DNA of 64,000 bases from the NCBI GenBank assembly GCA_947650365.1, contig CANTAL010000129.1, positions 248,001-312,000 of the forward strand. Direction: 5' to 3'. This document shows, in pieces, positions 1-64,000 of the stretch; position 1 is the stretch's first letter; each line of letters opens with the position of its first letter. The notes beneath the pieces were generated by a model. The model was not told the DNA's origin, did not search any database, and saw nothing but the letters and a program-made list of their open reading frames with translations. This stretch comes from Chamaelirium japonicum. Taxonomy: Eukaryota; Streptophyta; Magnoliopsida; Liliales; Melanthiaceae. Both the position numbers and the translations under genes were made by a program.

Positions 1-3000
1 AATGGATTAGAATAGATCGTACGAATGGATCATGCGAATGAATTAGAATGGATCGTACGAATGAATTAGAATGGATCGTACGAATGAATTAGAATGGATA
101 CATTCGAGTGAATGAATTAGAATGGATCATACGAATGAATTCGAATGGATCGTGCGAATGAATTAGAATGAATCGTACGAATGAATTAGAATGGATCGTA
201 CGAATGAATTGGAATGGATACATTTGTATGAATAAAATAGAATGCATTGTACGAATGAATTAGAATGGATATATTCTTGCGAATAAATTAGAATGGATCG
301 TATATTCGTGCAAATAAATTAGAATGGATCATACGAATGAATTAGAATGGATCGTGCGAATGAATTAGAATGAATCGTACGAATGCATTAGAATGGATCA
401 GACGAAAGAATTAGAATGAATCGTACGATCCATTCTAATTCATTTGTACGATCCATTCTAATCCATTCGCACGATCCATTCTAATTCATTCGTACGATCC
501 ATTCTAATTCATTCGTATGATCAATTCTAATTCATTCGTACAATCCATTCTAATTCAGTCGTATAAATGGATCATACGAATGAATTAGAATGGATCTTGC
601 GAATGAATTAAAATGGATCGTACAAATGAATTGGAATGGATCGTACGAATGAATTAGAATACATCATGTGAATGAATTAGAATGGATCGTACGTTTAAAT
701 TAGATTGGATTGTGCGAATGAATTAGAATGGATACATTCGTGCGAATGAATTAGAATAGATCGTATGAATGAATTAGAATGGATCGTACGAATGAATTAG
801 AATGGATACATTTGTACGAATGAATTATAATGGATCGTACGAATGAATTAGAATGGATCGTACGAATGAATTAGAATGGATAGTGCGAATGAATTAGAAT
901 GGATCGTACGAATGAATTAGAATGGATTGTAGGAATGAATTAGAATAGATCGTGCGAATGAATTAGAATGGATCGTACGAAAGAATTAGAATGGATCGTA
1001 CGAATGAATTAGAATGGATCATACGAATGAATTAGAATCGATCGTGCGAATAAATTAGAATGGATCGTAAGAATGAATTAGAATGGATACAATTGTGCGA
1101 TGAATAAGAATGGAGCGTACGAATGAATTAGAATGGAGTGTACGAATGAACTAGAATGGATACATTCGTGCGAATGAATTAGAATGGATCGTGCGAATGA
1201 ATTAGAATGGATCGTACGAACGAATTAGAATGGATCGTACGAACGAATTAGAATGGATCATATGAATAAAATAGAATGGATCGTATGAATAAATTACAAT
1301 GGATACATTCGTACGATCCATTCTAATTCATTCGTATGATCCATTCTTATTCATTTGTACGATCCATTCAAATTCATTCGCATGATCCATTCTAATTCAT
1401 TCGTACGATCCATTCTAATTCATTCTCATGAATGTAACCTTTCTAATTCATTTGTATGATCCATTCTAATTCATTCGTACGATCCATTCTAATCTATTCG
1501 TACGATCCATTCTAATCCATTCGTACGATCCATTCTAATTCATTCTCACAAATGTAACCTTTCTAATTCATTTGTACAATCCATTTTAATTCATTCATAC
1601 GATCCATTCTAATTTATTCGTACGATCCATTCTAATTCATTCGTACGATCCATTCTAATTCATCGCACGAATCTGTTCTAATTCATTCGCACGAATGAAT
1701 CAGAATGGATACATTCGTGCGAATGAATTAGAACGGATTCGTGCGATGAATTAGAATGGATTAGAATGGATACATTCGTGCGAATGAATTAGAATGGATC
1801 ATCCGAATAAATTAGAATGGATCGTATGAATGAATTAGAATGAATATATTTCAACGAATAAATTAGAATTGATCGTACAAATGAATTAGAATGGATACAT
1901 TTGTGCGAATTAATTAGAATAGATCATACGAATAAATTAGAATGGATCTTGCGAATGAATTAGAATGGATCGTACGAATAAATTAGAATGGATCCACCAA
2001 ATGAATTTAATGGATCATACAAATGAATTAGAAAGGTTACATTCGTGAGAATGAATTAGAATGGATCGTACGAATGAATTAGAATGGATCATGCGAATGA
2101 ATTTGAATGGATCGTACGAATGAATTAGAATGGATCGTACGATCCATTCTAATTCATTCTCACAAATGTATCCATTCTAATTCATTCGTATGATCCATTC
2201 TAATTCATTCGCACGATCCATTCTAATTCATTCGCACGAATATATCCATTCTAATTCATTCGTACGATCTATTCTAATTCATTTGTACGATCCATTCTAA
2301 TTTATTCGCACGATCCATTCTAATTCATTCGTACGATCCATTCTAATTCATTCGTATGATCCATTCTAACTCATTTGGTGGATCCATTCTAATTTATTCG
2401 TACGATCCATTCTAATTCATTCGCAAGATCCATTCTAATTTATTTGTATGATCTATTCCAATTAATTCGCACAAATGTATCCATTCTAATTCATTTGTAC
2501 GATCAATTCTAATTTATTCGTTCAAATATATTCATTCTAATTCATTCATACGATCCATTCTAATTCATTCGGATGATCCATTCTAATTCATTCGCACGAA
2601 TGTATCCATTCTAATCCATTCTAATTCATCGCATGAATCCGTTCTAATTCATTCGCACGAATGTATCCATTCTGATTCATTCGTGCGAATGAATTAGAAC
2701 AGATTCGTGCGATGAATTAGAATGGATCGTACGAATGAATTAGAATGGATCGTACGAATAAATTAGAATGGATCGTATGAATGAATTAAAATGGATTGTA
2801 CAAATGAATTAGAAAGGTTACAAATGAATTAAAATGGATTGTACAAATGAATTAAAATGGATTGCACGAATGTAACCATTCTAATTCATTCGTACGATTC
2901 ATTCTAATTCATTCGTATGAGCTATTCTAATTCATTCGTATGATCCATTCTAATTCATTCGTACGATCCATTGTAATTCATTCATACAATCCATTCAGAT

Positions 3001-6000
3001 TCATTCGCACAAATGTATCCATTCAAATTCATTTGTACGATCCTTTCTAATTAATTCGCACGATCCATTCTAATTCATTCTCACGAATGTAACCTTTCTA
3101 ATTCATTTGTATGATCCATTCTAATTCATTCGTACGATCCATTCTAATCCATTCGTACGATCCATTCTAATCCATTCGTACGATCCATTCTAATCCATTC
3201 GTACGATCCATTCTAATTCATTCTCACAAATGTAACCTTTCTAATTCATTTGTACGATCCATTCTAATTCATTCGTACGATCCATTCTAACCCATTCGTA
3301 TGATCCATTCTAATCCATTTGTACGATCCATTCTAATTCATTCGCACGAATGTAACCATTCTAATTCATTCGTACGATCCATTCTAATTCATTCCTACGA
3401 TCCATTCTAATTCATTCGCACGAATGTATCCATTCTAATTCATTTGCACGATCCATTCTAATTCATTTCTATAATCCATTCTAATTCATTCGTACGATCC
3501 ATTCTAATCCATTTGTACGATCCATTCTAATCTATTCGTACGATCCATTCTAATCCATTCGTACGATCCATTCTAATTTATTCTCACAAATGTAACCTTT
3601 CTAATTCATTTGTACGATCCATTCAAATTCATTCGTACGATCCATTTTAATCCATTCGTACGATCCATTCTAATTCATTCGTACGATCCATTCTAATTCA
3701 TTCATACAATCCATTCTAATTCATTCGCATAAATGTATCCATTCTAATTAATTCGTACGATCCATTCAAATTCATTCGTATGATCCATTCATATTCATTC
3801 GCACGATCCAATCTAATTGATTCGCACGATCCAGTCTAATTGATTCGCACGATCCAGTCTAATTGATTCGCACAATCCAGTCTTATTGATTCGCACGATC
3901 CAGTCTAATTGATTCGCACGATCCAGTCCATTCTAATTCATTCGTACGATCCATTCTAATTCATTAATATGATCCATTCTAATTCATTCGTACGATCCAT
4001 TCTAATTCATATGCACAAAGGTATCCATTCTAATTTATGTGCACGATCCATTTTAATTCATTCCTATGATCCATTCTAATTCATTCGTACGATCCATTCT
4101 AATTCATTCGCTTGAATGTATCCATTCTAATACATTCGTACGATCCATTCTAATTCATTCGTACGATCCATTCTTATTCATTCGTACGATCCATTCAAAT
4201 TCATTCGCATGATCCATTCTAATTCGTTCGTACGATCAATTCTAATTCATTCGTATGATCCATTCTAATTCATTCCTACGATCTATTCTAATTCATTCGT
4301 ATGATCCATTCTAATTCATTCCTACGATCAATTCTAATTCATTCGCTCGAATGTATCCATTCTAATTCATTCGTTCGATCCATTCTAATTCATTCGTCCG
4401 ATCCATTCTAATTCATTAGCTCGAGTGTATCCATTCTAATTCATTCGTACGATCCATTCTAATTCTTTCGTACGATCCGTTCTAATTCATTCCTATGATC
4501 CATTCTAGTTCATTCGCACGAATGTAACCATTCTAATTCATTCGTACGATCCATTCTAATTCATTCCTACGATCCATTCTAATTCATTCTCACGAATGTA
4601 TCCATTCTAATTTATTTGCACGATCCATTCTAATTCATTCCTGTGATCCATTCTAATTCATTCGTACGATCTATTCTAATTCATTCGCTCGAATGTATCC
4701 ATTCTAATTCATTCCTACGATCCATTCTAATTCATTCATACGATCCATTCTAATTCATTCTCACGAATGTAACCTTTCTAATTCATTTGTATGATCCATT
4801 CGTACGATCCATTCTAATTCATTCGTACGATCCATTCTAATTCATTCGCTCGAATGTATCTATTCTAATTCATTCGTACGATCCATTCTAATTCGTTCAT
4901 ACGATCCATTCTAATTCGTTCGTACGATCCATTCTAATTCATTCGTACGATCCATTCTAATTCATTCGCACGAATGTATCATACGAATGAATTAGAATGG
5001 ATCATGCGAATGAATTAAAATGGATCATACAAATGAATTAGAATGGATCGTGCGAATGAATTAGAATGGATCGTACGGACGAATTAGAATGGATCGTACG
5101 AACGAATTAGAATGGATCGTATGAATGAATTAGAATGGATACATTCGAGCGAATGAATTAGAATGGATCGTACGAATGAATTAGAATGGATCATAGGAAT
5201 GAATTAGAATGGATCGTGCAAATGAATTAGAATGGATACATTCGTGCGAATGAATTAGAATGGATCGTAGGAATGAATTAGAATGGATCGTAGGAATGAA
5301 TTAGAATGGATCGTACGAATTGATTAGAATGGATCGTACAAATGAATTAGAATGGATCGTACGAATGAATTAGAATGGATCGTACAAATGAATTAGAAAG
5401 GTTACATTTGTGAGAATGAATTAGAATGGATCGTACGAATGAATTAGAATGGATCGTACGAATGGATTAGAATGGATCGTACGAATGGATTAGAACGAAT
5501 TGTACGAATAAATTAGAATGGATCGTACGAATGGATTAGAATGGATCGTACGAATGAATTAGAATGGATCGTACGAATAAATTAGAATGGATACATTCGA
5601 GCGAATGAATTAGAATGGATTGTACGAATGAATTATAATGGATCATAGGAATGAATTAGAATGGATTGGGCAAATGAATTAGAATGGATACATTCGTGCG
5701 AATGAATTAGAATGGATCATGCAAATGAATTAGAATCGATACATTCGTGCGAATAAATTAGAATGGATCGTAGGAATGAATTAGAATGGATCGTATGAAT
5801 GAATTAGAATGGTTACATTCGTGCGTATGAATTAGAATGGATCGTACGAATGGATTAGAATAGATCGTACGAATGGATTAGAATGGATCGTACGAATGGA
5901 TTAGAATGGATCGTACAAATGAATTAGAAAGGTTACATTTGTGAGAATGAATTAGAATGGATCGTATGAATGAATTAGAATGGATCGTACGAATGGATTA

Positions 6001-6480
6001 GAATGGATCATACGAATGAATTAGAATGGATCGTACGAATGCATTAGAATAGATACATTCGTGCGAATGAATTAGAATGGATCATACGAATGAATTAGAA
6101 TGGATCGTGCGAATAAATTAGAATGGATCGTACGAATGAATTAGAATGGATCGTGCGAATGAATTAGAATGGATCGTACAAATGAATTAGAATGGATACA
6201 TTTGTGCGAATGAATTAGAATGGATCGTACGAATGAATTAGAATGGATCGTACGGATGAATTAGAATGGATCGTGCGAATGAATTAGAATGGATCGTACG
6301 AATAAATTAGAATGGATACATTTGTGCGAATGTGTTAGAATGGATCATACGAATGAATTAGAATAGATCGTACGAATGAATTAGAATGGATCATAAGAAT
6401 GAATTAGAATGGATCGTGTGAATGAATTAGAATGGATTGTACGAATTAATTAGAATGGATACATTCGAGCGAATGAATTA
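1..6480. repeat. Satellite segment with eight strand switches before the large duplicated unit
   Basis: Orientation blocks read by eye: plus 1-426, minus 427-564, plus 565-1311, minus 1312-1691, plus 1692-2137, minus 2138-2683, plus 2684-2867, minus 2868-4977, plus 4978-6480 and onward. The minus block 2868-4977 is the longest here and is rich in the 28-bp form, read as GAATGTATCC or GAATGTAACC. The plus stretch after 4978 is monotone. I see no gene or non-satellite sequence. Confidence 0.9.
3805..3930 (-). repeat. Local subarray of a private monomer variant
   Basis: About five consecutive 23-bp monomers share two linked changes, CCAGTCTAATTG in place of CCATTCTAATTC, and are followed by CGCACGAT. 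Neighbouring monomers on both sides have the ordinary form. Consecutive copies of a private variant indicate a very local, probably recent, expansion by slippage or unequal exchange. Confidence 0.85.
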
Positions 6481-9400
6481 GAATAGATCGTAGGAATGAA
6501 TTAGAATGGATCATACGAATGAATTAGAATGGATCGTGCAAATCAATTAGACTAGATTGTACGAATGAATTATAATGGATACATTCGTGCAAATGAATTA
6601 GAATTGATCGGACAAATGAATTAGAATGGATCGTACGATTCATTCTAATTCATTCGTACGATCCATTCTAATGCATTCGTACGATTCATTCTAATTCATT
6701 CGCACGATCCATTCTAATTAATTCGTACGATCCATTCTAATTTATTCGTATGATCCATTCTTATTTATTCGTACGATCCATTCTAATTCATTCGCACAAT
6801 CCATTCTAATTCATTCGTACGATCCATTCTAATTTATTCGTATGATCCATTCTAACTCATTCGGTGGATACATTCTAATTCATTCGTACGATCCATTCTA
6901 ATTCATTCGCACGATCCATTCTAATTTATTCATACGATCCGTTCTAATTCATTGGTACGATCTGTTCTAATTCATTCGCACGAATGTAACCATTCTAATT
7001 CATTCGTACGATTCATTCTAATTCATTCGTATAAGTTATTCTAATTCATTCGTACGATCCATTCTAATTCATTTGTACGATCCATTGTAATTCATTCATA
7101 CAATCCATTCAGATTCATTCGCATAAATGTATCCATTCAAATTCATTCGTACGATCCATTCTAATTAATTCGTATGATCCATTCTAATTCAGTCGTATGA
7201 ATGTATCCATTTTAATTCATTCGTACGATCCATTCTAATTCATTCGTACGATCTAATTCATTCGTACGATCCATTCTAATTCATTCGTACAATCGATTCT
7301 AATTCATTCGCACGATCCATTCTAATTCTTTCGTACGATCCATTCTAATTCATTCGTATGATCCATTCTAATTTATTCATTCAAATATATCCATTCTAAT
7401 TCATTCGTACGATCCATTCTAATTCATTCGCACGATCCATTCTAATACATTCGCACGAATGTATCCATTCTAATTCATTTGCACGATCCATTCTAATTCA
7501 TTCATACGATCCATTCTAATTTATTCGTACGATCCATTCTAATTCATTCGTACGATCCATTCTAATTCATTCATATGATCTATTCTAATTCATTCACACA
7601 ATCCATTCTAATTCATTCGCACGAATGTATCCATTCTAATTCATTCGTGCGATGAATAAGAATGGATCGTGCAAATGAATTAGAATGGATCATAGGAATG
7701 AATTAGAATGGATCGTGCAAATGAATTAGAATGGATACATTTGTGCGAATGAATTAGAATGGATCGTAGGAATGAATTAGAATGGATCATACGAATGAAT
7801 TAGAATGGTTACATTCTAATTCATTCGTACGCTCCATTCGTATTCATCGCACAAATGTATCCATTCTAATTCATTTGTACGATCCATTCTAATTCATTCG
7901 TACGATCCATTCTAATTCATTCATACGATCCATTCTAATTCATTTGTACAATCCATTCTAATTCATTCGCTCGAATGTATCCATTCTAATTCATTCGTAC
8001 GATCTATTCTAATTCGTTCATACGATCCTTTCTAATTCGTTCGCACGATCCATTCTAATTCATTCGTACGATCTATTCTAATTCATTCGCATGATCCATT
8101 CTAATTCATTCCTATGATCCATTCTAATTCATTTCCATGATCCATTCTTATTCATCGCACGAATGAATTAGAATGGATACATTCGTGCGAATGAATTAGA
8201 TTGGATTGTGTGAATGAATTAGAATAGATCATACGAATGAATTAGAATGGATCATACGAATGAATTAGAATGGATCGTACGAATGAATTAGAATGGATCG
8301 TACGAATGAATTAGAATGGATCGTGCAATTGAATTAGAATGGATCATAGGAATGAATTAGAAGGGATCATAGGAATGAATTAGAATGGATCATAGGAATG
8401 AATTAGAATGGATCGTACGAATGAATTAGAATGGATCGTACGAATGAATTAGAATGGATCGTATGAATGGATTAGAATGGATCGTACGAATGGATTAGAA
8501 CGCATTGTACGAATGAATTAGAATAGATACATTTGTTTGAATGAATTAGATTGAATCGTATGAAAGAATTTGAATGGATTGTATGAATGAATTAGAATGG
8601 ATCGTACGAATGAATTAGAATGGATCATGCGAATGAATTAGAATAGATCGTACGAATGAATTAGAATGGATCGTGCGAACGAATTAGAATGGATCGTATG
8701 AACGAATTAGAATGGATCGTATGAATGAATTAGAATTGATACATTCGAGCGAATGAATCAGAATGGATCGTACGAATAAATTAGAATGGATCATAGGAAT
8801 GAATTAGAATGGATGGTGCAAATGAATTAGAATGGATCATAGGAATGAATTAGAATGGATCGTGCAAATGAATTAGAATGGATCATAGGAATGAATTAGA
8901 ATGGATCATAGGAATGAATTAGAATGTATCCATTCTAATTCATTCGTACGATCCATTCTAATTCATTCGTACGATCCATTCTAATTCATTCATACGATCC
9001 ATTCTAATTCATTCGTACGATCTATTCTAATTCATTCACACAATCCATTCTAATTCATTCGCACGAGTGTATCCATTCTAATTCATTCGTGCGATGAATA
9101 AGAATGGATCGTGCAAATGAATTAGAATGGATCATAGAAATGAATTAGAATGGATCGTGCAAATGAATTAGAATGGATCTTCGGAATGAATTAGAATGGA
9201 TCGTACGAATGAATTAGAATGTTTACATTCTAATTCATTCGTACACTCCATTCTTATTCATCGTACAAATGTATCCATTCTAATTTATTTGTACGATCCA
9301 TTCTAATTCATTCGTACGATCTATTCTAATTCATTCCTATGATCCATTCTAATTCATTCATACGATCCTTTCTAATTCATTCGCTCGAATGTATCCATTC

Positions 9401-12400
9401 TAATTCATTCATACGATCCATTCTAATTCGTTCATACGATCCATTCTAATTCGTTCGCACGATCCATTCTAATTCATTCGTACGATCTATTCTAATTCAT
9501 TCACATGATCCATTCTAATTCATTCGTACGATCCATTCTAATTCATTCGTACAATCCATTCAAATTCATTCGTACGATGCAATCTAATTCATTCGCACAA
9601 ATGTATCTATGCTAATTCATTTGTACAATGCGTTCTAATCCATTCGTACGATCCATTCTAATCCATTCGTACGATTCATTCTAATTCATTCGCATGATCC
9701 ATTCTAATTCATTCGTACGATCCATTCTAATTCATTCGTACGATCCATTCTAATCCATTCGTATGATCAATTCTAATTCATTCGCACTATCCATTCTAAT
9801 TTATTCTCACGAATGTAACCTTTCTAATTCATTTGTATGATCCATTCTAATTCATTCGTACGATCCATTCTAATCCATTCGTACGATCCATTCTAATCCA
9901 TTCGTACGATCCATTCTAATTCATTCGTACGATCCATTCTAATCCAATCGTACGATCCATTCTAAAACATTCGTACGATCCATTCTAAATCATTCGCACG
10001 AATGTAACCATTCTAATTCATTCATTCGATCCATTCTAATTCATTCGCACAATCCATTCTAATTCATTCGTACGATCCATTCTAATCCATTCGTACGATC
10101 CATTCTAATTCATTCGTACGATCCATTGTAATTCATTCTCACAAATGTAACCTTTCTAATTCATTTGTACGATCCATTCTAATCCATTCGTACGATCCAT
10201 TCTAATCCATTCGTACGATCCCTTCTAATTCATTCGCACGAATGTAACCATTCTAATTCATTCGTACGATCCATTCTAATTCATTCCTATGATCCATTCT
10301 AATTCATTCGCACGAATGTATCCATTCTAATTCATTTGCACGATCCATTCTAATTCATTCCTATGATCCATTCTAATTCATTCGTACGATCCATTCTAAT
10401 TCATTCGCTCGAATGTATACATTCTAATTCATTCGTACGATCCATTCTAATTCGTTCATACGATCCATTCTAATTCGTTCGTACGATCCATTCTAATTCG
10501 TTCATACGATCCATTCTAATTCATTCGTACGATCCATTCTAATTCATTCGCACGATCCATTCTAATTCATTCGCACAAATGTATCCATTCTAATTCATTC
10601 GTACGATCCATTCTAATTCATTCGTACGATCCATTCTAATTCATTCGCACAAATGTAACCTTTCTAATTCATTTGTATGATCCATTCTAATTCATTCGTA
10701 CGATCCATTCTAATCCATTCGTACGATCCATTCTAATCCATTCGTACGATCCATTCTAATCCATTTGTACGATCCATTCTAATCCATTCGTACGATCCAT
10801 TTTAATTCATTCGCATGATCCATTCTAATTCATTTGCACGATCCATTCTAATTCATTCGTATGATCCATTCTATTTCATTCGTCTGATCCATTCTAATTC
10901 ATTCGTACGATCCATTCTAATTCATTCGGTGGATCCATTCGAATTCATTCGTACGATCCATTCTAATTCATTCCCACGATGTATTCTAATTTATTCGTAC
11001 GATCTATTCTAATTCATTCGTACGATCTATTCTAATTCATTCGCATGATCCATTCTAATTCATTCGTACGATCCATTCTTATTCATTCATACGATCCATT
11101 CTAATTCATTCGAACGATCCATTCTAATTCATTCACACAATCCATTCTAATTCATTTGTACGATCCATTCTAATTCATTTGTACGAATGAATTAGAATGG
11201 ATCGTACGAATGGATCGTACGAATGAATTAGAATGGATCGTACGAACGAATTAGAATGGATCGTATGAAAGAATTAGAATGGATCGTACGAATGAATTAG
11301 AATGGATACATTCGTGCGAATGAATTAGAATGGATCATACGAATGAATTAGACTGGATCGTATGAATAAATTAGAATGGATACATTCGTGCGAATGAATT
11401 AGAATGGATTGTGCGAATGAATTAGAACGGATTGTGCGAATGAACTAGAATGGATCGTGCGAATGAATTAGAATGGATCGTACGAATGAATTAGAATGGA
11501 TCATAGGAATGAATTAGAATGGATCATGCAATCGAATTAGAATGGATCGTACAAATGAATTAGAATGGATCGTACGATCCATTCTAATTCATTCTCACAA
11601 ATGTATCCATTCAAATTCATTCGTATGATCCATTCTAATTCATTCGCACGATCCATTCTAATTCATTCGCACGAATATATCCATTCTAATTCATTCGTAA
11701 GATCCATTCTAATTCATTCGTACGATCCATTCTAATTCGTTCGTACGATCCATTCTAATTCATTCGCACGATCCATTCTATTTCATTTGTATGATCCATT
11801 TTAATTCATTCGCATGATCCATTCTAATTCATTCGTACAATGCGTTCAAATTCATTCGCTCGAATGTATCCATTCTAATTCATTCGCTCGAATGTATCCA
11901 TTCTAATTCATTCGCACGAATGAATTAGAATGGATCGGACGAATGAATTAGAATGGATTGTACGATTCATTCTAATTCATTCGTACGATCCATTCTAGTG
12001 CATTCGTACGATTCATTCTAATTCATTCGCATGATCCATTCTAATTCATTCGTACGATCCATTCTTATTCATTCATACGATCCATTCAAATTCATTCGCA
12101 CAATCCATTCTAATTCATTCGTACGATCCATTCTAATTCATTTGTATGATCCATTCTAACTCATTTTAGAATGGATCGTACGAACGAATTAGAATGGATC
12201 GTATGAACGAATTAGAATGGATCGTACGAATGAATTAGAATGGATACATTCGAGCGAATGAATTAGAATGGATCGTATGAATGAAATAGAATGGATCGTA
12301 CGAATGGATTAGAATGGATCGTACGAATGAATTAGAATGGATCGAACGAATGAATTAGAATAGATACATTCGAGCGAATGAATTAGAATAGATCGTAGGA

Positions 12401-43724: not shown

Positions 43725-43793
43725 TTCGACTGGTTCCTGCGAGAACGCCCACGACCGCACGGTTGAACGCCATCGGCTCTTGTAAACCCAAGG

Positions 43794-48839: not shown

Positions 48840-48942
48840 AAGAGCAAGGGGGTGTGAGTGAGCTGCGAGCTGCGAGATGAAAGCAGAAGCAGAAGGAGAA
48901 GGGAGAGCTGTTTTTCACGCAGCGGTAAAAATCGCCCCCCGT

Positions 48943-48955
48943 CCCCTATTTGTAG
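48943..48955 (-). promoter_or_regulatory. TATA-like box for the antisense gene
   Basis: On the minus strand CTACAAATAGGGG lies about 105 bp before the antisense ATG, at the end of a GC-rich stretch and preceding an A/G-rich leader. The spacing suits a plant TATA box and 5' leader. Prediction only. Confidence 0.45.
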
Positions 48956-50150: not shown

Positions 50151-50252
50151 AATCCACAAGGTGGAGGTCGCCACTGCCTGGTACTCCCAATCCAATCGTC
50201 GTGGGCAACAAGACTCCAGAGCAAGCGTCAAGGTCTCCTTGGTCGCTCCCTC

Positions 50253-50264
50253 AGGAGGGGGTAA
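50253..50264 (+). promoter_or_regulatory. Polypurine tract
   Basis: AGGAGGGGG followed by TAA lies immediately before the 3' LTR, where plus-strand DNA synthesis is primed in LTR elements. Position and composition are typical. Confidence 0.8.
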
Positions 50265-51124
50265 TATTGGGGGTAGCTGAAACTCGCCCAGGAGTTCGCG
50301 CCCCCGTGCTCACTAAATCATCTTGACAGGGAGCGAGATCCACATTGGGCTGAAGGGGCCCAAGGCCAAGAGCTCGCTCAGGAGCTCGCCTAGCTCGCGC
50401 AGGAGCTCGCCCATGCTCGCTCAGGAGCTCGCCTAGCTTGCGCAGGAGCTCGCCCAAGCTCGCCCAGGAGCTCGCCTAGCTCGCGCAGGAGCTCACCCAA
50501 GCTCGCTCAGGAGCTCGCTCAGGAGCTCGCCCATGCTCGCCCAGGAGCTCGCCTAGCTCGCGTAGGAGCTCGCCCATGCTCGCTCAGGAGCTCGCCCAAG
50601 CTTGCCCAGCCCCTGTTTATCGAAGAAGTCGCTTCCGCGAAGTCCGACTCTTGATAGATATGGACGAAAGGGTGGAGCAGTGCAGGGCGAGCTTGCCTTT
50701 GCTTTCTCCCTGAGACCGCCCAGACTTGAACATTCTAGAATAGCCACCTGGCAGCGACAAGAAAGATGCTCTCCCCCACTCAAACCGCCTGGCAGGCTTG
50801 ACGACAGAATGTCAGGGCGCGAGTACCAAGGACAGTCAGACCCACGCGAGCCAGATCGTGGGGGTCTAGAAGGCCCTGGAAGAATCTCCACGTGTCGGGC
50901 CACCATAGGCCGCCAAAGTCTATAAATGCACACCCCCAGGCTCCAAAGTACAGGTTCGAATCCCATTTCCCTACCACTTTAGTATACAACAGCTCGCCGT
51001 TGTGCACCCGTGACTGACTTGAGCGTCGGAGGGTCTGTGCTCCTAAGGGAGCCAGCCGTTCTCACGTTCTCTTTTCTTTGTCTTGCAGGTGGCTCGCAAG
51101 GATCAGTGAAAAATCCCCCAAACA
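50265..51124 (+). repeat. 3' LTR
   Basis: 860 bp, begins TATTGGGGG and ends CCCCCAAACA. It is nearly identical to 42836-43704; the length difference is one shortened 43-bp subrepeat (spacing 34 in place of 43 near 50509-50543). The TATA-like word is conserved at 50920-50927. Confidence 0.95.
50380..50615 (+). repeat. 43-bp tandem subrepeats in the 3' LTR
   Basis: AGGAGCTCGC words start at 50380, 50423, 50466, 50509, then 50543 after a shorter interval, matching the array in the 5' LTR. The array length is therefore the most variable part of the LTR. Confidence 0.9.
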
Positions 51125-51129
51125 GTTCA
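51125..51129. repeat. Target site duplication, right copy
   Basis: GTTCA directly after the CAAACA end of the 3' LTR, pairing with GTTCG at 42831. The satellite resumes as TACAAATGAATTAG in the correct monomer phase. Confidence 0.75.
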
Positions 51130-53219
51130 TACAAATGAATTAGAATGGATCGTACGAATGAATTAGAATGGATCGTACGAATGGATTAGAACGCATTGTA
51201 TGAATGAATTAGAATGGATCGTACGAATGGATCGTACGAATGAATTAGAATGGATACATTCGAGCAAATGAATTAGAATCGATTGTACGAATAAATTAGA
51301 ATGGATCATAGGAATGAATTTGAATGGATCGTGCAAATGAATTAGAATGGATACATTCGTGCGAATGAATTAGAATGGATCGTAGGAATGAATTAGAATG
51401 GATCGTGCGAATGAATTAGAATGGTTACATTCGTGCGAATGAATTAGAATGGATCGTACGAATGGATTAGAATGGATCGTACGAATGGATTAGAATGGAT
51501 CGTACGAATTAGAATGGATCGTACGAATGAATTAAAATGGATACATTCATACGACTGAATTAGAATGGATCGTGCGAATTAATTAGAATGGATCGTACGA
51601 ATGAATTTGAATGGATACTTTTGTGCGAATGAATCTGAATGGATTGTTTGAATGAATTACAATTGATTGTACGAATGGATTAGAACGGATCGTATGAATG
51701 AATTAGAATGGATCGTACAAATGAATTAGAAAGGTTACATTCGTGAGAATGAATTAGAATGGATCGTACGAATGAATTAGAATGGATCATGCGAATGAAT
51801 TTGAATGGATTGTACGAATGAATTAGAATGGATCATACGAATGAATTAGAATGGCTCGTGCGAATGAATTAGAATGAATCGTACGAATGCATTAGAATGG
51901 ATCATACAAATGAATTAAAATGGATCATACAAATGAATTGGAATGGATTGTACGTTTGAATTAGATTGGATCGTACGTTTGAATTAGAATGGATCATACA
52001 AATGAATTAGAATGGATCGTACGTTTGAATTAGACTGGATTGTGCGAATGAATTAGAATGGATCATACGAATGAATTAGAATGGATCGTGCGAATGAATT
52101 AGAATGGATCGTACGAATGAATTTGAATGTATCGTACGAATGAATTAGAATGGATCGGACGAATGAATAAGAATGGATCGTACGAATGAATTAGAATGGA
52201 TCGTGCGAATGAATTAGAATGAATCGTACGAATGCATTAGAATGGATCGTACGAATGAATTCGAATGAATCGTACGAACGAATTAGAATGGATCGTACGA
52301 ACGAATTAGAATGGATCGTATGAACGAATTAGAATGGATCGTACGAATGAATTTGAATGGATACATTCGAGCGAATGAATTAGAATGGATACATTCGTGC
52401 GAATGAATTAGAATGGATCGCACGAATGAATTAGAATGGATTGTATGAATAAATTAGAATGGATCATAGGAATGAATTAGAATGGATCGTGCAAATGAAT
52501 TGGAAAGGATCGTACGAATGAATTAGAATGGATATATTCGTGCGAATGAATTAGAATGGATCGTACGAATGAATTAGACTGGATCGTACGAATAAATTAG
52601 AATGGATACATTCGTGCAAATCAATTAAAATGGATCGTATGAATGAATTAGAATGGATCGTACGAATGAATTAGAATGGATCGTACGAATGAATTAGAAT
52701 GGATCGTACGAATGAATTAGAATGGATTATATGAATGAATTAGAATGGTTACATTCGTGCGAATGAATTAGAATGGATTGTACGAATGGATTAGAATGGA
52801 TCGTACAAACGGATTAGATTGCATTGTACGAATGAATTAGAATAGATACATTTGTGCGAATGAATTAGATTGCATCGTATGAATGAATTTGAATGGATTG
52901 TACGAATGAATTAGATTGAATCGTACGAATGAATTAGAATGGATCGTGCGAATGAATTAGAATGGAACGTACGAATAAATTAGAATGGATCGTGCGAATG
53001 AATAAGAATTGATCGTACGAATTAATTAGAATGGATACATTTGTGCGAATGAATTAGAATGGATCGTACGAATGGATTAGAATGGATCGTACGAATGAAT
53101 TAGAATGGATCATACAAATGAATTAGAAAGGTTACATTCGTGAGAATGAATTAGAATGGATCGTACGAATGAATTAGAATGGATCGTACGAATGGATTAG
53201 AATGGATCGTACGAATGAA

Positions 53220-53425
53220 TTAGAATGGATCGTGCAAATGATCGTGCGAATGAATTAGAATGGATCGTGGGAATGATCGTGCGAATGAGTTAGAATGGAT
53301 CGTGCGAATGATCGTGCGAATGATCGTGCGAATGAATTAGAATGGATCGTACGAATACATTAGAATGGATCGTATGAATGAATTAGAATGGATCGTGCGA
53401 ATGATCGTGCGAATGAATTAGAATG
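53220..53425 (+). repeat. Cluster of truncated 12-bp satellite units
   Basis: The word GAATGATCGTGC, a 23-bp monomer lacking 11 bases of its core, occurs repeatedly, singly and in direct tandem (about 53300-53330), interspersed with full monomers. I saw no other cluster like it. It suggests slippage between the two GAATG words of a monomer and then local amplification. Confidence 0.85.
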
Positions 53426-54779
53426 AATTGTACGAATACATTAGAATGGATCGTACGAATAAATTAGAATGGATACATTTGTGCGAATGAATTAGAATGG
53501 ATCGCACAAATGAATTAAAGTGGATATATTTATACGAATGAATTAGAATGAATCGTACGAATGCATTAGAATGGATCGTACGAATGAATTAGAATGGATA
53601 CATTCGTGCGAATGAATTAGAATGGATCGTACGAATAAATTAGAATGGATCGTGTGAATGAATTAGAATGGATCGTGCGAATGAATTAGAATGGATCGTA
53701 TAAATGAATTAGAATGGATCGTACGAATGAATTAGAATGGATCGTACAAATGAATTAGAATGGATCATACAAATGAATTAGAAAGGTTACATTCGTGACA
53801 ATGAATTAGAATGGATCGTTCGAATGAATTAGAATGGATCATAGGAATGAATTAGAATGGATCATGCAAATGAATTAGAATCGATCGTACGAATAAATTA
53901 GAATGAATTAGAATCGATACATTCGTGCGAATGAATTAGAATGGATCGTACGAATGAATTAGAATGGATTGTACGATTGAATTAGAATAGATCGCACGAA
54001 TGAATTAGAATGGTTACATTCGTGCGAATGAATTGGAATGGATCGTACGAATGAATTAGAATGGATCGTGAGAATGAATTAGAATTGATCATACGAATGA
54101 ATTAGAATGGATCGTACGAATGGATTAGAACGCATTGTATGAATGAATTAGAATAGATACATTTGTGCGAATGAATTAGATTGCATCGTACGAATAAATT
54201 TGAATGGATTGTATGAATGAATTAGAATGGATCGTACGAATGAATTAGAATGGATTATGCGAATGAATTAGAATAGATCATACGAATAAATTAGAATGGA
54301 TCGTGCGAATGGATTAGAATGGATCATATGAATGAATTAGAATGGATCCACCGAATGAGTTAGAATGGATCATGCGAATGAATTAGAATGAATCAGACGA
54401 ATGAATTAGAATGGATACATTCGTGCGAATGAATTAGAATGGATCGGACGAATGAATTAGAATTGATCGTGCGAATGAATTAGAATGGATCATACGATTG
54501 AATAGAATGGATCGTACGAATGAATTAGAATGGATCATACAAATAAATTAGAAAGGTTACATTCGTGAGAATGAATTAGAATGGATCGTACGAATGAATT
54601 AGAATGGATCATTCGAATGAATTTGAATAGATCGTACGAATGAATTAGAATGGATCGAACGAATGAATTAGAATAGATACATTCGAGCGAATGAATTAGA
54701 ATAGATCGTAGGAATGAATTAGAATGGATCATACGAATGAATTAGAGTGGATCGTGCGAATGAATTAGAATGGATTGTA

Positions 54780-56178
54780 CGAATGAATTAGAATGGATAC
54801 ATTCGTGCGAATAAATTAGAATGGATCGAGGAATGGATATATTTATGCGAATGAATTAGAATGGATCGTACGAATAAATTAGAATGGATTGTACGAATGA
54901 ATTAGAATGGATACATTTGAGGGAATGAATTAGAATGGATCGTACGAATGAATTAGAATGGATCATAGGAATGAATTAGAATGGATCGTTTAAATGAGTT
55001 AGAATGGATCCTACGAATGAATTAGAATGGATCGAACGAATGAGTTAGAATGGATACATTTGAGCGAATGAATTAGAATAGATCGTAGGAATGAATTAGA
55101 ATGGATCGTACGAATGAATTAGAATGGATTGAGCGAATGAATTAGAATGGTTACAATTGTACAAATGAATTAGAATGGATCGTACGAATGGATTAGAATG
55201 GATCGTACGAATGGATTAGAACGCATTGTACGAGTGAATTAGAATAGATACATTTGTGCGAATGAATTAGATTGCATCGTACGAATGAATTTGAATGGAT
55301 TGTACGAATGAATTAGAATGGATCGTACGAATGAATTAGAATGGATCATGCGAATGAATTAGAATAGATCGTACGAATGAATTAGAATGGATCGTGCGAA
55401 CGAATTAGAATGGATCGTATGAACGAATTAGAATGGATCGTATGAATGAATTAGAATGGATACAATCGAGCGAATGAATTAGAATGGATCGTACGATGCA
55501 ATCTAATTCATTCGCACGATCCATTCTAATTCATTCGCATGATCCATTCCAATTCATTCGTATGATCCATTCTAATTCATTCGTACGATCCATTCTAATT
55601 CATTCGCACGAATGTATCCATTCTAATTCAGTTGCACGATCCATTCTAATTCATTCCTATGATCCATTCTAATTCATTCGTAAGATCCATTCTAATTCAT
55701 TCGTCCGATCAATTTCAAAATCATTCGTACGATTCAATCTAATTCATTCGCACAAATGTATCTATTCTAATTCATTCGTACAATGTGTTCTAATCCATTC
55801 GTACGATCCATTCTAATCCATTCGTACGATCCATTCTAATTCATTCGTATGATCCATTCTAATTCATTCGTACGATCCATTCTAATTCATTTGCATGAAT
55901 GTATCCATTCTAATTCATTCGTACAATCCATTCTAATTCATTCGCACGATCCATTCTAATTCATTCGTATGATCCATTCTAATTCATTCCTACGATCTAT
56001 TCTAATTCATTCGCTCGAATGTATCCATTCTAATTCATTCGTTTGATCCATTCTAATTCATTCGTACGATCCATTCAAATTCATTCGCATGATCCATTCT
56101 ATTTCATTCGTACGATCCATTCTAATTCATTCTCACGAATGTAACCTTTCTAATTCATTTGTATGATCCATTATAATT
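54780..56178. repeat. 1.4 kb higher-order unit, first copy
   Basis: Matches about 58436-59860 at an offset of 3.63-3.68 kb, including the rare word GGATCGAGGAA near 54826, the AACGCATTG variant at 55220, the plus-to-minus switch CGTACGATGCAATC near 55495 and the minus-strand series up to about 56178. Confidence 0.82.
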
Positions 56179-56185
56179 CATTCGT

Positions 56186-58430
56186 GCGAATGAATTAGAA
56201 TGGATCGTACGAATGGATTAGAATGGATCGTACAAATGGATTAGAATGGATCGTACGAATGAATTAGAATGGATCGTACAAATGAATTAGAAAGGTTACA
56301 TTTTTGAGAATGAATTAGAATGGATCGTACGAATGAATTAGAATGGATCGTACGAATGGATTAGAATGGATCGTACAAATGAATTAGAATGGATCGTACG
56401 AATGCATTAGAATGGATACATTCGTGCGAATGAATTAGAATGGATCGTACGAATGAATTAGAATGGATCGTGCGAATGAATTAGAATGGATCGTATGAAC
56501 GGATTAGAATGGATCGTGCGAATGAATTAGAATGGATCGTACGAATGAATTAGAATGGATACATTTGTGCGAATGAATTAGAATGGATCGTACGAATTAA
56601 TTAGAATGGATCGTACGAATGAATTAGAATGGATCGTACAAATGAATTAGAAAGGTTACATTTGTGAGAATGAATTAGAATGGATCGTACGAATGAATTA
56701 GAATGGATCGTACGAATGGATTAGAATGGATCGTACGAATGGATTAGAATGGATCGCACGAATGAATTAGAATGGATCATATAAATGAATTAGAAAGGTT
56801 ACATTCTTGAGAATGAATTAGAATGGATCGTACGAATGAATTAGAATGGATCATGCGAATGAATTTGAATGGATTGTACGAATGAATTAGAATGGATCGA
56901 ACGAATGAATTAGAATGGATACATTCGAGCGAATGAATTAGAATAGATCGAAGGAATGAATTAGAATGGATCATACGAATGAATTAGAATGGATCGGGCG
57001 AATGAATTAGAATGGATTGTACGAATGAATTAGAATGGATACATTCATGCAAATGAATTAGAATGGATCGTACGAATGAATTAGAATGGATCATACGAAT
57101 GAATTAGAATGGATCATACAAATGAATTAGAATGGATCGTACGAATGGATTAGAACGCATTGTACGAATGAATTATAATAGATACATTTGTGCAAATGAA
57201 TTAGATTGCATCGTACGAATAAATTTGAATGGATCGGACGAATGAATTAGAATGGATCGTACGAATGAATTAGAATGGATCATAGGAATGAATTAGAATG
57301 GATCGTGCAAATGAATTAGAATGGATACATTCGTGCGAATGAATTAGAATGGATCGTGCGAATGAGTTAGAATGGATCGTACGAATGAATTAGAATGGAT
57401 ACATTCATGCAAATGAATTAGAATGGATCGTACGAATGAATTAGAATGGATCATACGAATGAATTAGAATGGATCGTACGAATGGATTAGAATGGATCGT
57501 ACGAATGGATTAGAACGCATTGTACGAATGAATTAGAATAGATACATTTGTGCGAATGAATTAGATTCCATCGTACGATGCAATCTAATTCATTCGCACG
57601 ATCCATTCTAATTCATTCGTACGATCCATTCTAATTCATTCGTATGATCCATTCTAATTCATTCGTACGATCCATTCTAATTCATTCACTCGAATGTAAC
57701 CATTCTAATTCATTCGTACGATTCATTCTAATTCATTCATATGATCCATTCTAATACATTTGTACGATTCATTCTAATTCATTCGTACAATCCATTCTAA
57801 TTCAGTCGTATGAATTTATCATACGAATGAATTAGAATGGATCATAGGAATGAATTAGAATGGATCGTGCAAATGAATTAGAATGGATACATTCGTGCGA
57901 ATGAATTAGAAAGGATCGTAGGAATGAATTAGAATGGATCGTACGAATGAATTAGAATGGTTACATTCGTGCAAATGAATTAGAATGGATCGTACGAATG
58001 GATTAGAATGGATCGCACGAATGGACTAGAATGGATCGTAGGAATGAATTAGAACGGATCGTACGAATGGATTAGAATGGATCGTACGAATGAATTAGAA
58101 TGGATTGTACAAATGAATTAGAAAGGTTACATTTGTGAGAATGAATTAGAATGGATCGTACGAATGGATTAGAATGGATCGTACGAATGGATTAGAATGG
58201 ATCGTACGAATGAATTAGAATGGATACATTCGTGCGATTGAATTAGAATGGATTGTATGAATGAATTAGAATGGATCGTACGAATGAATTAGCATGGTTA
58301 CATTCGTGCGAATGAACGAGAATGGATCGTACCAATTATTTAGAATGGATACATTCGAGCGAATGAATTAGAATAGATCATATGAATGAATTAGAATGGA
58401 CCGTACAAATGAATTAGAAAGGTTACATTC
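56186..58430. repeat. 2.2 kb higher-order unit, first copy
   Basis: Corresponds to about 61678-63905 at an offset of 5.47-5.50 kb. Shared landmarks in order: AAAGGTTACATTTGTGAG monomers, a GCATTAG variant before ATACATTCG, the short minus-oriented island (57577-57819 against 63069-63282), and the CAGTCGTATGAAT switch back to plus. Confidence 0.82.
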
Positions 58431-58435
58431 GTGCG

Positions 58436-59860
58436 AATAAATTAGAATGGATACATTCGTGCGAATTAATTAAAATGGATCGAGGAAGGGATATATTTAT
58501 GCGAATGAATTAGAATGGATCGAACGAATGAATTAGAATGGATACATTTGTGCGAATGAATTAGAATGGATCGTACGAATGAATTAGAATGGATCGTACG
58601 AATGAATTAGAATGGATACATTTGTGCGAATGAATTAGAATGGATCGTACAAATGAATTAGAATGGATTATACGAATGAATTAGAATGGATACATTTGAG
58701 CAAATGAATTAGAATGGATCGTACGAATGAATTAGAATGGATCATAGGAATGAATTAGAATGGATCGTGCAAATGAATTAGAATGGATCGTACGAATGAA
58801 TTAGAATGGATCGAACGAATGGATTAGAATGGATCGTACGAATGGATTAGAACGCATTGCACGAATGAATTAGATTAGATATTTTTGTGCGAATGAATTA
58901 GATTGCATCGTACGAATGAATTTGAATGGATTGTACGAATGAAATAGAATGGATCGTACGAATGAATTAGAATGGATCATACGAATGAATTAGAATAGAT
59001 CGTACGAATGAATTAGAATGGATCGTGCGAACGAATTAGAATGGATCGTATGAATGAATTAGAATGGATCGTATGAATGAATTAGAATGGATACATTCGA
59101 GCGAATGAATTAGAATGGATCGTACGATGCAATCTAATTTATTCGCACGATCCATTCTAATTCATTCGTACGATCCATTATAATTTATTCGTATGATCCA
59201 TTCTAATTTATTCGTTCAAATATATCCATTCTAATTCATTCGTATGATCCATTCTAATTCATTCCCACGATCCATTCTAATTCATTCGCACGAATGTATC
59301 CATTCTAATTCAGTTGCACGATCCATTCTAATTCATTCCTATGATCCATTCTAATTCATTCGTACGATCCATTCTAATTCATTCGTCCGATCCATTCAAA
59401 TTAATTCGTACGATGCAATCTAATTCATTGACACAAATGTATCTATTCTAATTCATTCGTACAATGCGTTCTAATCCCTTCGTACGATCCATTCTAATCC
59501 ATTCGTACGATCCATTCTAATTCATTCGTATGATCCAATCTAATTCATTCGTACGATCCATTCTAATTCATTTGCATGAATGTATCTATTTTAATTCATT
59601 CGTACAATCCATTCTAATTCATTCGCACGATCCATTCTAATTCATTCGTATGATCCATTCTAATTCATTCCTACGATCTATTCTAATTCATTCGCTCGAA
59701 TGTATCCATTCTAATTCATTCGTTCGATCCATTCTAATTCATTCGTACGATCCATTCAAATTCATTCGCATGATCCATTCTTATTCATTCATACGATCCA
59801 TTCTAATTCATTCTCACGAATGTAACCTTTCTAATTCATTTGTATGATCCATTATAATTC
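58436..59860. repeat. 1.4 kb higher-order unit, second copy
   Basis: Partner of 54780-56178. Beyond about 59860 the minus-oriented block continues to 60785 while the first copy turns back to plus at 56186, which marks the end of the shared segment. Confidence 0.82.
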
Positions 59861-60920
59861 ATTCGTACGATCCATTCTAATCCATTCGTACGATCCATTC
59901 TAATCCATTCGTATGATCCATTCTAATTCATTCGTACGATCCGTTCTAATTCATTCTCACAAATGTAACATTTCTAATTCATTTGTACGATCCATTCTAA
60001 TTCATTCGTACGATCCATTCTAATTCATTTGTACGATCGATTCTAATTCATTTGCACAAATGTATCCATTCTAATTCATTCGAACGATCCATTCTAATTC
60101 ATTCGCACGATCCATTCTAATTCGTTCGCACGATCCATTCTAATTCATTCGCACGATCCATTCTAATTCATTCGCACGATCCATTCTAATTCATTCGCAC
60201 GAATGTATCCATTCTAATGCATTCGTATGATCCATTCTAATTCATTCGTACGATCCATTCTAATCCATTCGTACGATCCATTCTAATTCATTCGTACGAT
60301 CGATTCTAATTCATTCTCACAAATGTAACCTTTCTAATTCATTTGTACGATCTATTCTAATTCATTCGTACGATCCACTCTAATCCATTCGTATGATCCA
60401 TTCTAATCCAATCGTACGATCCATTCTAATTCATTCGCACGAATGTAACCATTCTAATCCATTCGTACGATCCATTCTAATTCATTCCTACGATCCATTC
60501 GAATTCATTTGTACAAATGTATCCATTCTAATTCATTTGTACGATCCATTCTAATTCATTCCTATGATCCATTCTAATTCATTCGTATGATCCATTCTAA
60601 TTCATTCGCTAGAATATATCCATTCTAATTCATTCGTACGATCCATTCTAATTCGTTCGTACGATCCATTCTAATTCGTTCATACGATCCATTCTAATTT
60701 GTTCGTACGATCCATTCTAATTCATTTGTATGATCAATTTTAATTCATTCGCATGATCCATTCTAATTCATTCGTTTGATTCATTCGTGTGAATGAGTTA
60801 GAATGGATCATACGAATGAATTAGAATGGATCGTACGAATGAATTAGAATGGATCGTACGAATGGATTAGAATGGATCGTACGAATGAATTAGAATGGAT
60901 CGTACGAATGAATTAGAATG

Positions 60921-62075
60921 GATACATTCCAGCGAATGAATTAGAATGGATCGTACGAATTAATTAGAATGGATCATAGGAATGAATTAGAATGGATCGT
61001 GCAAATGAATTAGAATGGATACATTCGTGCGAATGAATTAGAATGGATCGTAGGAATGAATTAGAATGGATCGTACGAATGAATTAGAATGGTTACATTC
61101 GTGTGAATGAATTAGAATTGATCGTACGAATGGATTAGAATGGATCGTACGAATGGATTAGAATGGATCGTATGAATGAATTAGAATGGATCGTACAAAT
61201 GAATTAGAAAGGTTACATTTGTGAGAATGAATTAGAATGGATCGTACGAATGAATTAGAATGGATCGTACGAATGGATTAGAATGGATCGTACGAAAGAA
61301 TTAGAATGGATCGTACGAATGCATTAGAATGGATACATTCGTGCGAATGAATTAGAATGGATCATACGAATGAATTAGAATGGATCGTGCGAATGAATTA
61401 GAATGGATTGTACGAATGAATTAGAATGGATCGTGCGAATGAATTAGAATGTATCGTACGAATGAATTAGAATGCATCGTACGAATGAATTAGAATGGAT
61501 ACATTCCAGCGAATGAATTAGAATGGATCGTACGAATGAATTAGAATGGATCATAGGAATGAATTAGAATGGATCGTGCAAATGAATTAGAATGGATACA
61601 TTCGTGTGAGTGAATTAGAATGGATCGTAGGAATGAATTAGAATGGATCGTACGAATGAATTAGAATGGTTACATTCTTGCGAATGAATTAGAATGGATC
61701 GTACGAATGGATTATAATGGATCGTTCAAATGGATTAGAATGGATCGTACGAATGAATTAGAATGGATCATACAAATGAATTAGAAAGGTTACATTTGTG
61801 AGAATGAATTAGAATGGATCGTACGAATGAATTAGAATGGATTGTACGAATGAATTAGAATGGATCGTACGAATGCATTAGAATGGATACATTCGTGCGA
61901 ATGAATTAGAATGGATCGTACGAATGAATTAGAATGGATCGTGCGAATGAATTAGAATGGATCGTACGAATGAATTAGAATGGATCGTGCGAATAAATTA
62001 GAATGGATCGTACGAATGAATTAGAATGGATACATTTGTGCGAACGAATTAGAATGGATCGTACGAATGAATTAG
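60921..62075 (+). repeat. ~577-bp tandem higher-order pair
   Basis: The private 28-mer variant ACATTCCAGCG occurs at about 60924 and 61501, spaced 577 bp, each followed by the same order of ATCATAGG, ATCGTGCAAATG, GGTTACATTC and AAAGGTTACATTTGTGAG monomers. Confidence 0.75.
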
Positions 62076-63905
62076 AATGGATCTTACGAATGAATTAGAA
62101 TGGATCGTACAAATGAATTAGAAAGATTACATTTGTGAGAATGAATTAGAATGGATCGTACGAATGAATTAGAATGGATCGTACGAATGGATTAGAATGG
62201 ATCGTACGAATGGATTAGAATGGATCGCACGAATGAATTAGAATGGATCATACAAATGAATTAGAAAGGTTATATTCGTGAGAATGAATTAGAATGGATC
62301 GTACGAATGAATTAGAATGGTACATGCGAATAAATTTGAATGGATCGTACGAATGAATTAGAATGGATGGAACGAATGAATTAGAATGGATACATTCGAG
62401 CGAATGAATTAGAATAGATCGTAGGAATGAATTAGAATGGATCATACAAATCAATTAGAATGGATCGTGCGAATGAATTAGAATGGATTGTACGAATGAA
62501 TTAGAATGGATACATTCATGCAAATGAATTAGAATGGATCGTACGAATGAATTAGAATGGATCATACGAATGAATTAGAATGGATCGTACAAATGGATTA
62601 GAATGGATCGTACGAATGGATTAGATTGCATTGTACGAATGAATTAGAATAGATACATTTATGCGAATGAATTAGATTGCATCGTACGAATGAATTTGAA
62701 TGGATCGGACGAATGAATTAGAAGGGATCGTACGAATGAATTAGAATGGATCTAGGAATGAATTAGAATGGATCGTGCAAATGAATTAGAATGGATACAT
62801 GAGTGCGAATGAATTAGAATGGATCGTGCGAATGAATTAGAATGGATCGTACGAATGAATTATAATGGATACATTCATGCAAATGAATTAGAATGGATTG
62901 TACGAATGAATTAGAATGGATCATACGAATGAATTAGAATGGAACGTACGAATGGATTAGAATGGATCGTACGAATGGATTAGAACGCATTGTACGAATG
63001 AATTAGAATAGATACATTTGTGCGAATGAATTAGATTGCATCGTACGAATGAATTTGAATGGATCGTACGATGCAATCTAATTCATTCGCACGATCCATT
63101 CTAATTCATTCGTACGATCCATTCTAATTCATTCGTATGATCCATTCTAATTCATTCGCTCGAATGTAACCATTCTAATTCATTCGTACGATTCATTCTA
63201 ATTCATTCGTACGATCCATTCTAATGCATTCGTACGATTCATTCAAATTCATTCGTACCATCCATTCTAATTCAGTCGTATGAATGTATCATACGAATGA
63301 ATTAGAATGGATCATAGGAATGAATTAGAATGGATCGTGCAAATGAATTTGAATGGATACATTCGTGCGAGTAAATTAGAATGGATCGTAGGAATGAATT
63401 AGAATGGATCGTACGATTGAATTAGAATGGTTACATTCGTGCAAATGAATTAGAATGGATCGTACGAATGGATTAGAATGGATCGTACGAATGGATTAGA
63501 ATGGATCGTACGAATGGATTAGAATGGATCGTACGAATGAATTAGAATGGATCGTACAAATGAATTAGAAAGGTTACATTTGTGAGAATGAATTATAATG
63601 GATCGTACGAATGGATTAGAATGGATTGTACGAATGGATTAGAATGGATTGTACGATTGGATTAGAATGGATCGTACGAATGAATTAGAATGGATACATT
63701 CGTGTGAATGAATAAGAATGGATTGTATGAATGAATTAGAATGGATCGTACGAATGAATTAGAATGGTTACATTCGTGCGAATGAACTAGAATGGATCGT
63801 ACGAATAAATTAGAATGGATACATTCGAGCGAATGAATTAGAATAGATCATACGAATGAATTAGAATGGATCGTACAAATGAATTAGAAAGGTTACATTT
63901 GTGAG
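61678..63905. repeat. 2.2 kb higher-order unit, second copy
   Basis: Partner of 56186-58430. The order of 28-bp landmarks and both strand switches is conserved. Small indels of single monomers shift the offset between 5.47 and 5.50 kb. Confidence 0.82.
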
Positions 63906-64000
63906 AATAAGTTAGAATGGATCGTATGAATGAATTAGAATGGTTACATTTATGCAAATGATTTAGAATGGATTATACGAATGAATTAGAATGGATCATA

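Follow-up and report, generated by a model that had tools for sequence, protein, structure and literature searches.

Background

Chio1 and Chio2 are the 23- and 28-bp repeats of the holocentric plant Chionographis japonica, and their binding to CENH3 was determined by chromatin immunoprecipitation followed by sequencing (PMC10264360). The 28- and 23-bp monomers differ by a 5-bp deletion and one substitution, and the repeats form megabase-sized units spaced about 10 Mb along the chromosomes (PMC10264360; PMC12722358). A mixture of forward and reverse arrays was published in 2023 (PMC10264360), and the arrays were termed frequently alternating in 2025 (PMC12722358). Here we analyse a 64,000-nucleotide stretch (the window) of the Chamaelirium japonicum assembly GCA_947650365.1, located at positions 248001-312000 of contig CANTAL010000129.1 (denoted C141), which carries a 23-bp satellite of alternating orientation. 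The alternation itself is already in print for what is apparently the same species; the new part is the analysis of the points at which the orientation switches.

The 9-mer TTCGTACGA, common to Chio and to the Chama satellite, was proposed to form hairpins that lead to breaks and ectopic repair, and how the centromere units multiplied along Chionographis chromosomes was stated as unknown in 2025 (PMC12722358). The candidates for unit multiplication in 2023 were interlocus gene conversion, inversions and circular DNA (PMC10264360). An analogue from beetles is Tribolium madens, where inversion sites are about 98-99% conserved over thousands of copies and diverged from normal monomers, and where function and mode of spread were both left open as the reason for this conservation (PMC13081366). 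Such symmetries are documented in Tribolium only, according to the same paper, whose main text does not contain Chionographis. A literature search limited to titles and abstract openings, with few subscription papers and without supplements, returned no mention of switch-point sharing in Chio.

Taking all results below together, we consider it probable that the satellite is Chio1/Chio2 and that many of its switches descend from a limited set of ancestral inverted junctions, multiplied by tandem duplication and exchange.

Orientation switches in the window

Both strands were scanned with a cyclic profile built on the 23-bp unit; the 28-bp form was modelled as an insertion of five bases into this unit, and any phase was allowed after a switch. 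The window has 52 direct switches, 26 from plus to minus and 26 from minus to plus, and the result was identical at switch penalties of 10, 14 and 20; at a penalty of 30, background gaps of 1-9 bases replace the switches and leave 0 direct ones, which makes this run not comparable. The satellite amounts to 55,712 bp (33,870 bp plus and 21,842 bp minus) in 54 blocks with a median length of 730.5 bp, a minimum of 45 bp and a maximum of 4,367 bp. As a control, identical monomers were all re-oriented to one strand, which resulted in one block and no switch. The switch count is therefore not a product of the model. The initial annotation had reported about 52 reversals in about 56 kb, with blocks ranging from some 50 bp (11916-11963) to more than 4 kb. 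The profile confirms this alternation; the short block corresponds to 11917-11961 and the long one to 51126-55492, and a denominator of about 56 kb is correct because 42838-51125 is a GC-rich long terminal repeat (LTR) retrotransposon and not satellite.

We then extended the scan by 100 kb per side. The 264 kb of C141 examined contain no N, and the array stops sharply at C141:377542. Over C141:148001-377542 there are 218 switches in 216,303 bp of satellite (110,985 bp plus), about one switch per kb. Three 10-kb samples of the 137-Mb scaffold C1 hold a further 40 switches. In the whole assembly, an exact 30-mer of the unit has 820,588 forward and 831,105 reverse occurrences. Among the matches listed, the satellite places on C1 cluster at 1.4-3.3, 10.3-10.8, 17.1-18.4, 27-31, 40, 49-51, 65-67, 75-76 and 134 Mb.

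Each switch was also assigned a register, defined as the sum of the phases on its two sides, which is constant whatever the exact breakpoint. On C141, 118 of 218 switches lie in the register of the TCGTACGA dyad (TCGT/ACGA), namely 66/109 from plus to minus and 52/109 from minus to plus, where an even spread over the 23 registers would give 4.7 per switch type. When each 92% cluster is reduced to one representative, the corresponding values are 15/41 and 15/38, and in the window they are 19/26 and 11/26. Since copied switches are not independent, binomial values calculated from these counts are not probabilities of origin.

Switch junctions shared within the contig and the genome

In order to compare the junctions, we clustered 100-bp windows around the switches, with single linkage at 90% for the clusters of the window. 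The 52 switches fall into 21 to 30 groups, varying with the threshold. The plus-to-minus switch at 6623-6646 clusters with those at 424, 11961, 17839, 22222, 27318, 33696 and 63067. The minus-to-plus junction at 7640-7672, a private truncation, belongs to a cluster of six in both orientations (7651, 8154, 9093, 23239, 23742 and 24658). Its exact 33-mer occurs 5 times in the window and 213 times in the genome (98 and 115 by direction), among the matches listed on C3, C4, C5, C6, C7, C11, C15, C22, C27, C31, C37 and C69. For a second truncated junction (12148-12177), the exact 30-mer has 2 copies in the window and 753 in the genome (347 and 406), with C2, C3 and C4 among the matches listed. Judged from these sequences, hundreds of independent origins for the truncated junctions would not be credible.

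The 66 dyad-register plus-to-minus switches on C141 group into 27 clusters at 96% identity, the largest with 33 members, compared to 63-66 clusters with at most 1-2 members in four sets of artificial joins. The commonest junction carries one variant arm; of these 66 switches, 14 show its core in one direction and 13 in the other. The exact 28-mer of this asymmetric junction has 9,825 genome copies (5,023 and 4,802), and its symmetric counterpart has 2,878; the latter is palindromic, so that every place appears on both strands. The variant arm makes up 3.6% of the two monomer forms counted, and random joining of monomer forms predicts an asymmetric to symmetric ratio of 0.075, compared to the observed 3.41. 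For minus-to-plus junctions the counts are 2,721 and 3,560, a ratio of 0.76 where 0.12 is predicted. In the C1 samples, one plus-to-minus type appears at L029:1811, L029:4194, L030:1688 and L031:8414, up to 49 Mb apart, with all of 40 bases the same except one.

Switch counts consequently overstate the number of inversion events. Truncated junctions, being both rare and exact, are usable as lineage markers, and since the same ones occur in both directions on several chromosome-size scaffolds, exchange between units becomes directly testable.

Tandem macro-copies

Two consecutive 16-block segments of the window (copies A and B of Table 1) have the same strand order, and 7 of 16 block lengths are identical. 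The whole alignment has 95.5% identity at aligned positions and 87.5% with gaps counted, where 25 pairs of unrelated 1.5-kb pieces gave a baseline of 0.890 without gaps and 0.817 with them. In 500-bp steps, scored by the identical letters in copy A alone and so not strictly comparable with the baseline, 16 of 32 have values of 0.96-0.99, some inner steps have 0.83-0.89, and the last 8 have only 0.77-0.89. Fourteen of the 16 corresponding switches fall in one 90% cluster each, the exceptions being 9217/24818 and 20177/35766. About 14 of the 52 switches of the window are therefore second copies by tandem duplication alone.

Judged from block lengths, an 8-block unit of 5.64 kb is also present three times in tandem at C141:315124-331844. 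One of its blocks measures 856, 879 and 902 bp across the copies, a growth of 23 bp each, or one monomer at a time. On C1:2553956-2779737, the asymmetric junction occurs, among the matches listed, in pairs about 10.2-10.5 kb apart, with some pairs at about 51 kb. This spacing suggests nested macro-repeats in that unit too.

Fold-back test and copy scan

The initial annotation had also proposed that single strands could fold into very long hairpins at the inverted junctions, that fold-back replication errors would be favoured and that such an architecture may generate and spread the array. The capacity to fold is supported by prediction: in 300-nt windows the mean DNA folding energy is -107.0 kcal/mol at the 52 switches versus -27.6 kcal/mol in 60 uniform-block windows, about four times stronger. 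These hairpins are a model result and not evidence of folding in the cell.

In order to look for the arm symmetry that recent fold-back would leave, we compared the identity of facing arms on C141 to that of arms paired across different switches of one type; a switch entered the comparison if both its blocks reached the arm length, which excluded 37, 64 and 111 of 218 switches for arms of 100, 200 and 400 bp. The numbers of facing arms above the 95% point of this null were 0/88 (plus to minus) and 0/93 (minus to plus) at 100 bp, 0/75 and 0/79 (0/154 together) at 200 bp, and 0/55 and 4/52 at 400 bp, where 2.6 are expected for the last. Restricting the test to the dyad register gave 0/54 and 1/47, 0/47 and 0/43, and 0/33 and 2/30, respectively.

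We also searched for copies within the same 216 kb by a k-mer and alignment scan. Copies less than 500 bp apart and 20-mers with over 40 occurrences were excluded, and for every window the best three places in each direction were aligned. A BLAST self-comparison of C141 had been discarded, as a known 15-kb copy was absent from its matches. Copies at 94% identity or higher were found for part of the 1,076 windows of 400 bp: direct copies for 150 and inverted ones for 75. Direct copies lie within 20 kb in 140 of 150 cases and inverted ones in 10 of 75, with a median distance of 120 kb for the inverted copies. Tandem duplication is thus mainly direct and most inverted copies are far away, a pattern that fits duplication and exchange between distant blocks of opposite orientation better than folding repeated in place. 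A pair of 188-bp exact inverted copies (1553-1740 and 2635-2822), each across a minus-to-plus switch, is among the few local inverted duplications.

Identity of the satellite

All 55,712 bp of satellite in the window are covered by the profile, whose 23- and 28-bp forms are related through a 5-bp deletion plus a single substitution; there are about 431 entries into the 28-bp form per 2,337 monomer starts. The 9-mer TTCGTACGA is present on the reverse strand of the unit. Arrays of mixed orientation, which characterise Chio, are found in the window and throughout the 216 kb. The window thus likely belongs to a centromere unit, built of Chio1/Chio2, in a holocentric plant of the Chionographis type; the match was made to the published description, and we consider it probable jointly with the shared descent of junctions.

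Retrotransposons in and around the array

The satellite of the window is interrupted by one LTR retrotransposon inside a plus block. Over 848 aligned bases its two LTRs show 16 mismatches, plus 23 gap columns, and the flanking GTTCG and GTTCA, which differ at one base, may be the two copies of a target duplication. Apart from the two LTRs and a gag open reading frame (ORF), it has no pol among the listed ORFs, the composition of a non-autonomous gag-only LTR element: no pol domain was matched in Pfam among the 16 ORFs of at least 120 aa in the window, shorter or frame-broken remnants not being searched. Elements of this kind are known as TR-GAG, and assuming a rate of 1.3e-8 per site per year the element would be roughly 0.7 million years old. 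It also contains opposite-strand ORFs of 737 aa (no Pfam match) and 186 aa (Pfam matches solely below curated cut-offs), as well as internal tandem repeats of 43, 78 and 144 bp. The other 13 listed ORFs had either no Pfam match at E 0.01 (10) or, in tandem-repeat DNA, matches below cut-off only (3). Neither Rfam, applied at gathering scores to 42500-51700, nor a search for tRNAs across the window gave a match.

Elsewhere on C141, an insert of 4,951 bp (C141:224306-229256) starts with a T run and has a minus-strand open frame of 1,353 codons that, by eye, resembles the endonuclease and reverse transcriptase of a long interspersed nuclear element. The flank beyond the array (C141:377543-412000) has 49.8% GC and frames resembling, again by eye, Ty3 and Ty1 retroelements.

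Table 1 Features of the window. Positions are those of the window. Basis denotes the analyses from which each feature was derived.
Feature	Position	Strand	Basis
Probable Chio-type satellite, 23-bp unit GAATGGATCGTACGAATGAATTA and 28-bp variant, 45 alternating blocks	1..42837		Profile scan, tandem repeats, block count
Plus-to-minus switch, TCGT/ACGA dyad register, asymmetric variant arm (GGATCGTACGATTCATTC)	6623..6646		Clustering
Macro-repeat copy A, 16 blocks: -1017 +160 -343 +768 -171 +124 -1958 +398 -343 +45 -204 +2887 -782 +2005 -2338 +2045	6635..22222		Profile, block count, alignment; offset 15.4-15.9 kb
Minus-to-plus switch, private truncation, 33-mer junction	7640..7672		Clustering, exact search
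Shortest block, 45 bp; twin at 27274-27318	11917..11961	+	Profile
Minus-to-plus switch, private truncation (CTAACTCATTTTAGAATGG); twin at 27522	12148..12177		Clustering, exact search
Macro-repeat copy B, 16 blocks	22223..38236		Profile, alignment
LTR retrotransposon within plus block, LTRs of about 860 bp at each end	42838..51125	+	Profile boundaries
gag ORF of the retrotransposon	43794..45185	+	Pfam Retrotrans_gag, E 5e-7
Satellite resumes, 9 blocks, the final one extending past the window	51126..64000		Profile
Longest block, 4,367 bp	51126..55492	+	Profile

Discussion

The explanation of the switches that we prefer is descent. The founding inverted junctions would have been few and often located at the palindromic TCGTACGA core, where monomer strands join seamlessly. 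Tandem duplication of multi-kilobase segments already holding several switches would then multiply them locally, and homologous exchange, whether by conversion, break-induced copying or inversion between opposite blocks, would transfer them between distant arrays in either direction. As exchange between opposite blocks would invert a segment without making a new junction, few founding events could give very many switches.

Several results weigh against this explanation. On C141, 47 of 79 clusters at 92% are single switches, which leaves a sizeable share of switches unrelated to any other in the region examined. At 88-92% the cluster counts are approximate, and at 90% the 66 dyad-register plus-to-minus switches form 13 clusters, compared to 16-21 for artificial joins, a contrast that shrinks because ordinary monomer runs are already alike and the null merges too. 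In the 30 kb of C1, 7/40 switches (5/20 and 2/20) are in the dyad register; the preference is clear on C141 and weaker elsewhere, and could be due to local amplification instead of a general rule. In the arm test, one junction present in flipped copies elevated the plus-to-minus null (95% points of 0.95, 0.94 and 0.95 in the dyad register), for which reason the absolute identities weigh more; the highest were 0.90, 0.863 and 0.880 at 100, 200 and 400 bp, far below a fresh mirror image, which still counts against separate fold-backs. Conversion would erode arm symmetry over time, and the founding events may themselves have been old fold-backs. Finally, within 5 kb the 9 inverted copies are about equal to the 12 direct ones, for which we lowered our confidence slightly.

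That each switch arose separately, by fold-back template switching in replication that continually generates and extends the array, appears quite unlikely to us. The stable predicted folding of switch windows, the many C141 switches in register of the 8-bp dyad and the local inverted copies, such as the 188-bp pair, are what it would lead one to expect, and the 9 near inverted copies mean that some local inverted duplication does occur. However, the facing arms compared have no excess identity at any of the three lengths, inverted copies are mostly far, and identical junction sequences exist in hundreds to thousands of copies. These observations speak against recent fold-back as the main generator of switches, and this part of the earlier proposal was not supported. 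The dyad could instead be a recurrent inversion hot spot, at which hairpin breaks or recombination form look-alike junctions independently. To this we assign an equally small chance. Although the concentration of switches in one of 23 registers, on C141 and in the window, and the hairpins proposed for the 9-mer (PMC12722358) agree with a hot spot, the 3.6% variant arm of the commonest plus-to-minus junction, about equal in both directions, points to descent. Truncated junctions outside the dyad register are amplified too, and the C1 samples have few switches in register.

It is also conceivable, but distinctly improbable, that selection maintains the alternation, with inverted arrays or their loops aiding CENH3 loading or shaping centromeric chromatin. 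Chio arrays do bind CENH3 (PMC10264360) and conserved inversion sites also mark the putative (peri)centromeric satellites of Tribolium madens (PMC13081366), but in Chamaelirium luteum, the sister species, the Chama arrays of the centromeres are oriented consistently (PMC12722358), and copying alone would account for the conservation. Inverted chimeras are a known artefact of long reads, and chimeric reads or scaffold joins could in principle imitate switches. Against such an assembly or library artefact stand the 264 kb without N, the recurrence of switches in diverged tandem copies and the many exact junction copies in both directions. The published assembly, moreover, was built from 58.5x HiFi reads, and the mixture of orientations is reported for it (PMC10264360). 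We rejected an artefact, whose probability we consider negligible, on sequence grounds alone.

Descent from few junctions builds on the hairpin, break and repair proposal of PMC12722358. A bolder extension is that inverted junctions were the copied module by which around a hundred centromere units were colonised, with breaks at core hairpins starting the copying of kilobase blocks into further units in either direction. We regard this as speculative and rather unlikely. If true, junction lineages would be a new, readable record of hairpin, break and repair, and the centromeric satellites of plants and beetles would have acquired conserved inversion sites convergently.

Comparison with known systems

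The satellite resembles Chio in its 23/28-bp monomers, dyad core and mixed-orientation arrays, and its clusters on C1, among the matches listed, may correspond to the megabase units along the chromosome (PMC10264360; PMC12722358). In the passages of these papers on the arrays there is no switch rate, switch-point sequence, macro-copy or sharing of junctions between units, all of which were measured here; CENH3 binding was demonstrated in the published work. Chama of Chamaelirium luteum, from the sister genus, has the 9-mer in common, but its monomer is 60 bp and its arrays are consistently oriented, with higher-order repeats over hundreds of kilobases (PMC12722358). The macro-dyads of Tribolium madens and its congeners (PMC13081366) share with our satellite the blocks of opposite orientation and the conserved inversion sites unlike ordinary monomers; this holds here for the commonest junction types, many other switches being unshared singletons. 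They differ in being beetle satellites that derive from an element of about 110 bp, with mostly two subarrays per array, compared to 23/28-bp monomers in 54 blocks per 56 kb in a plant. Because blocks of 45 to 4,367 bp take the place of two roughly symmetric subarrays per array, we assign the satellite to Chio and regard Tribolium as an analogue.

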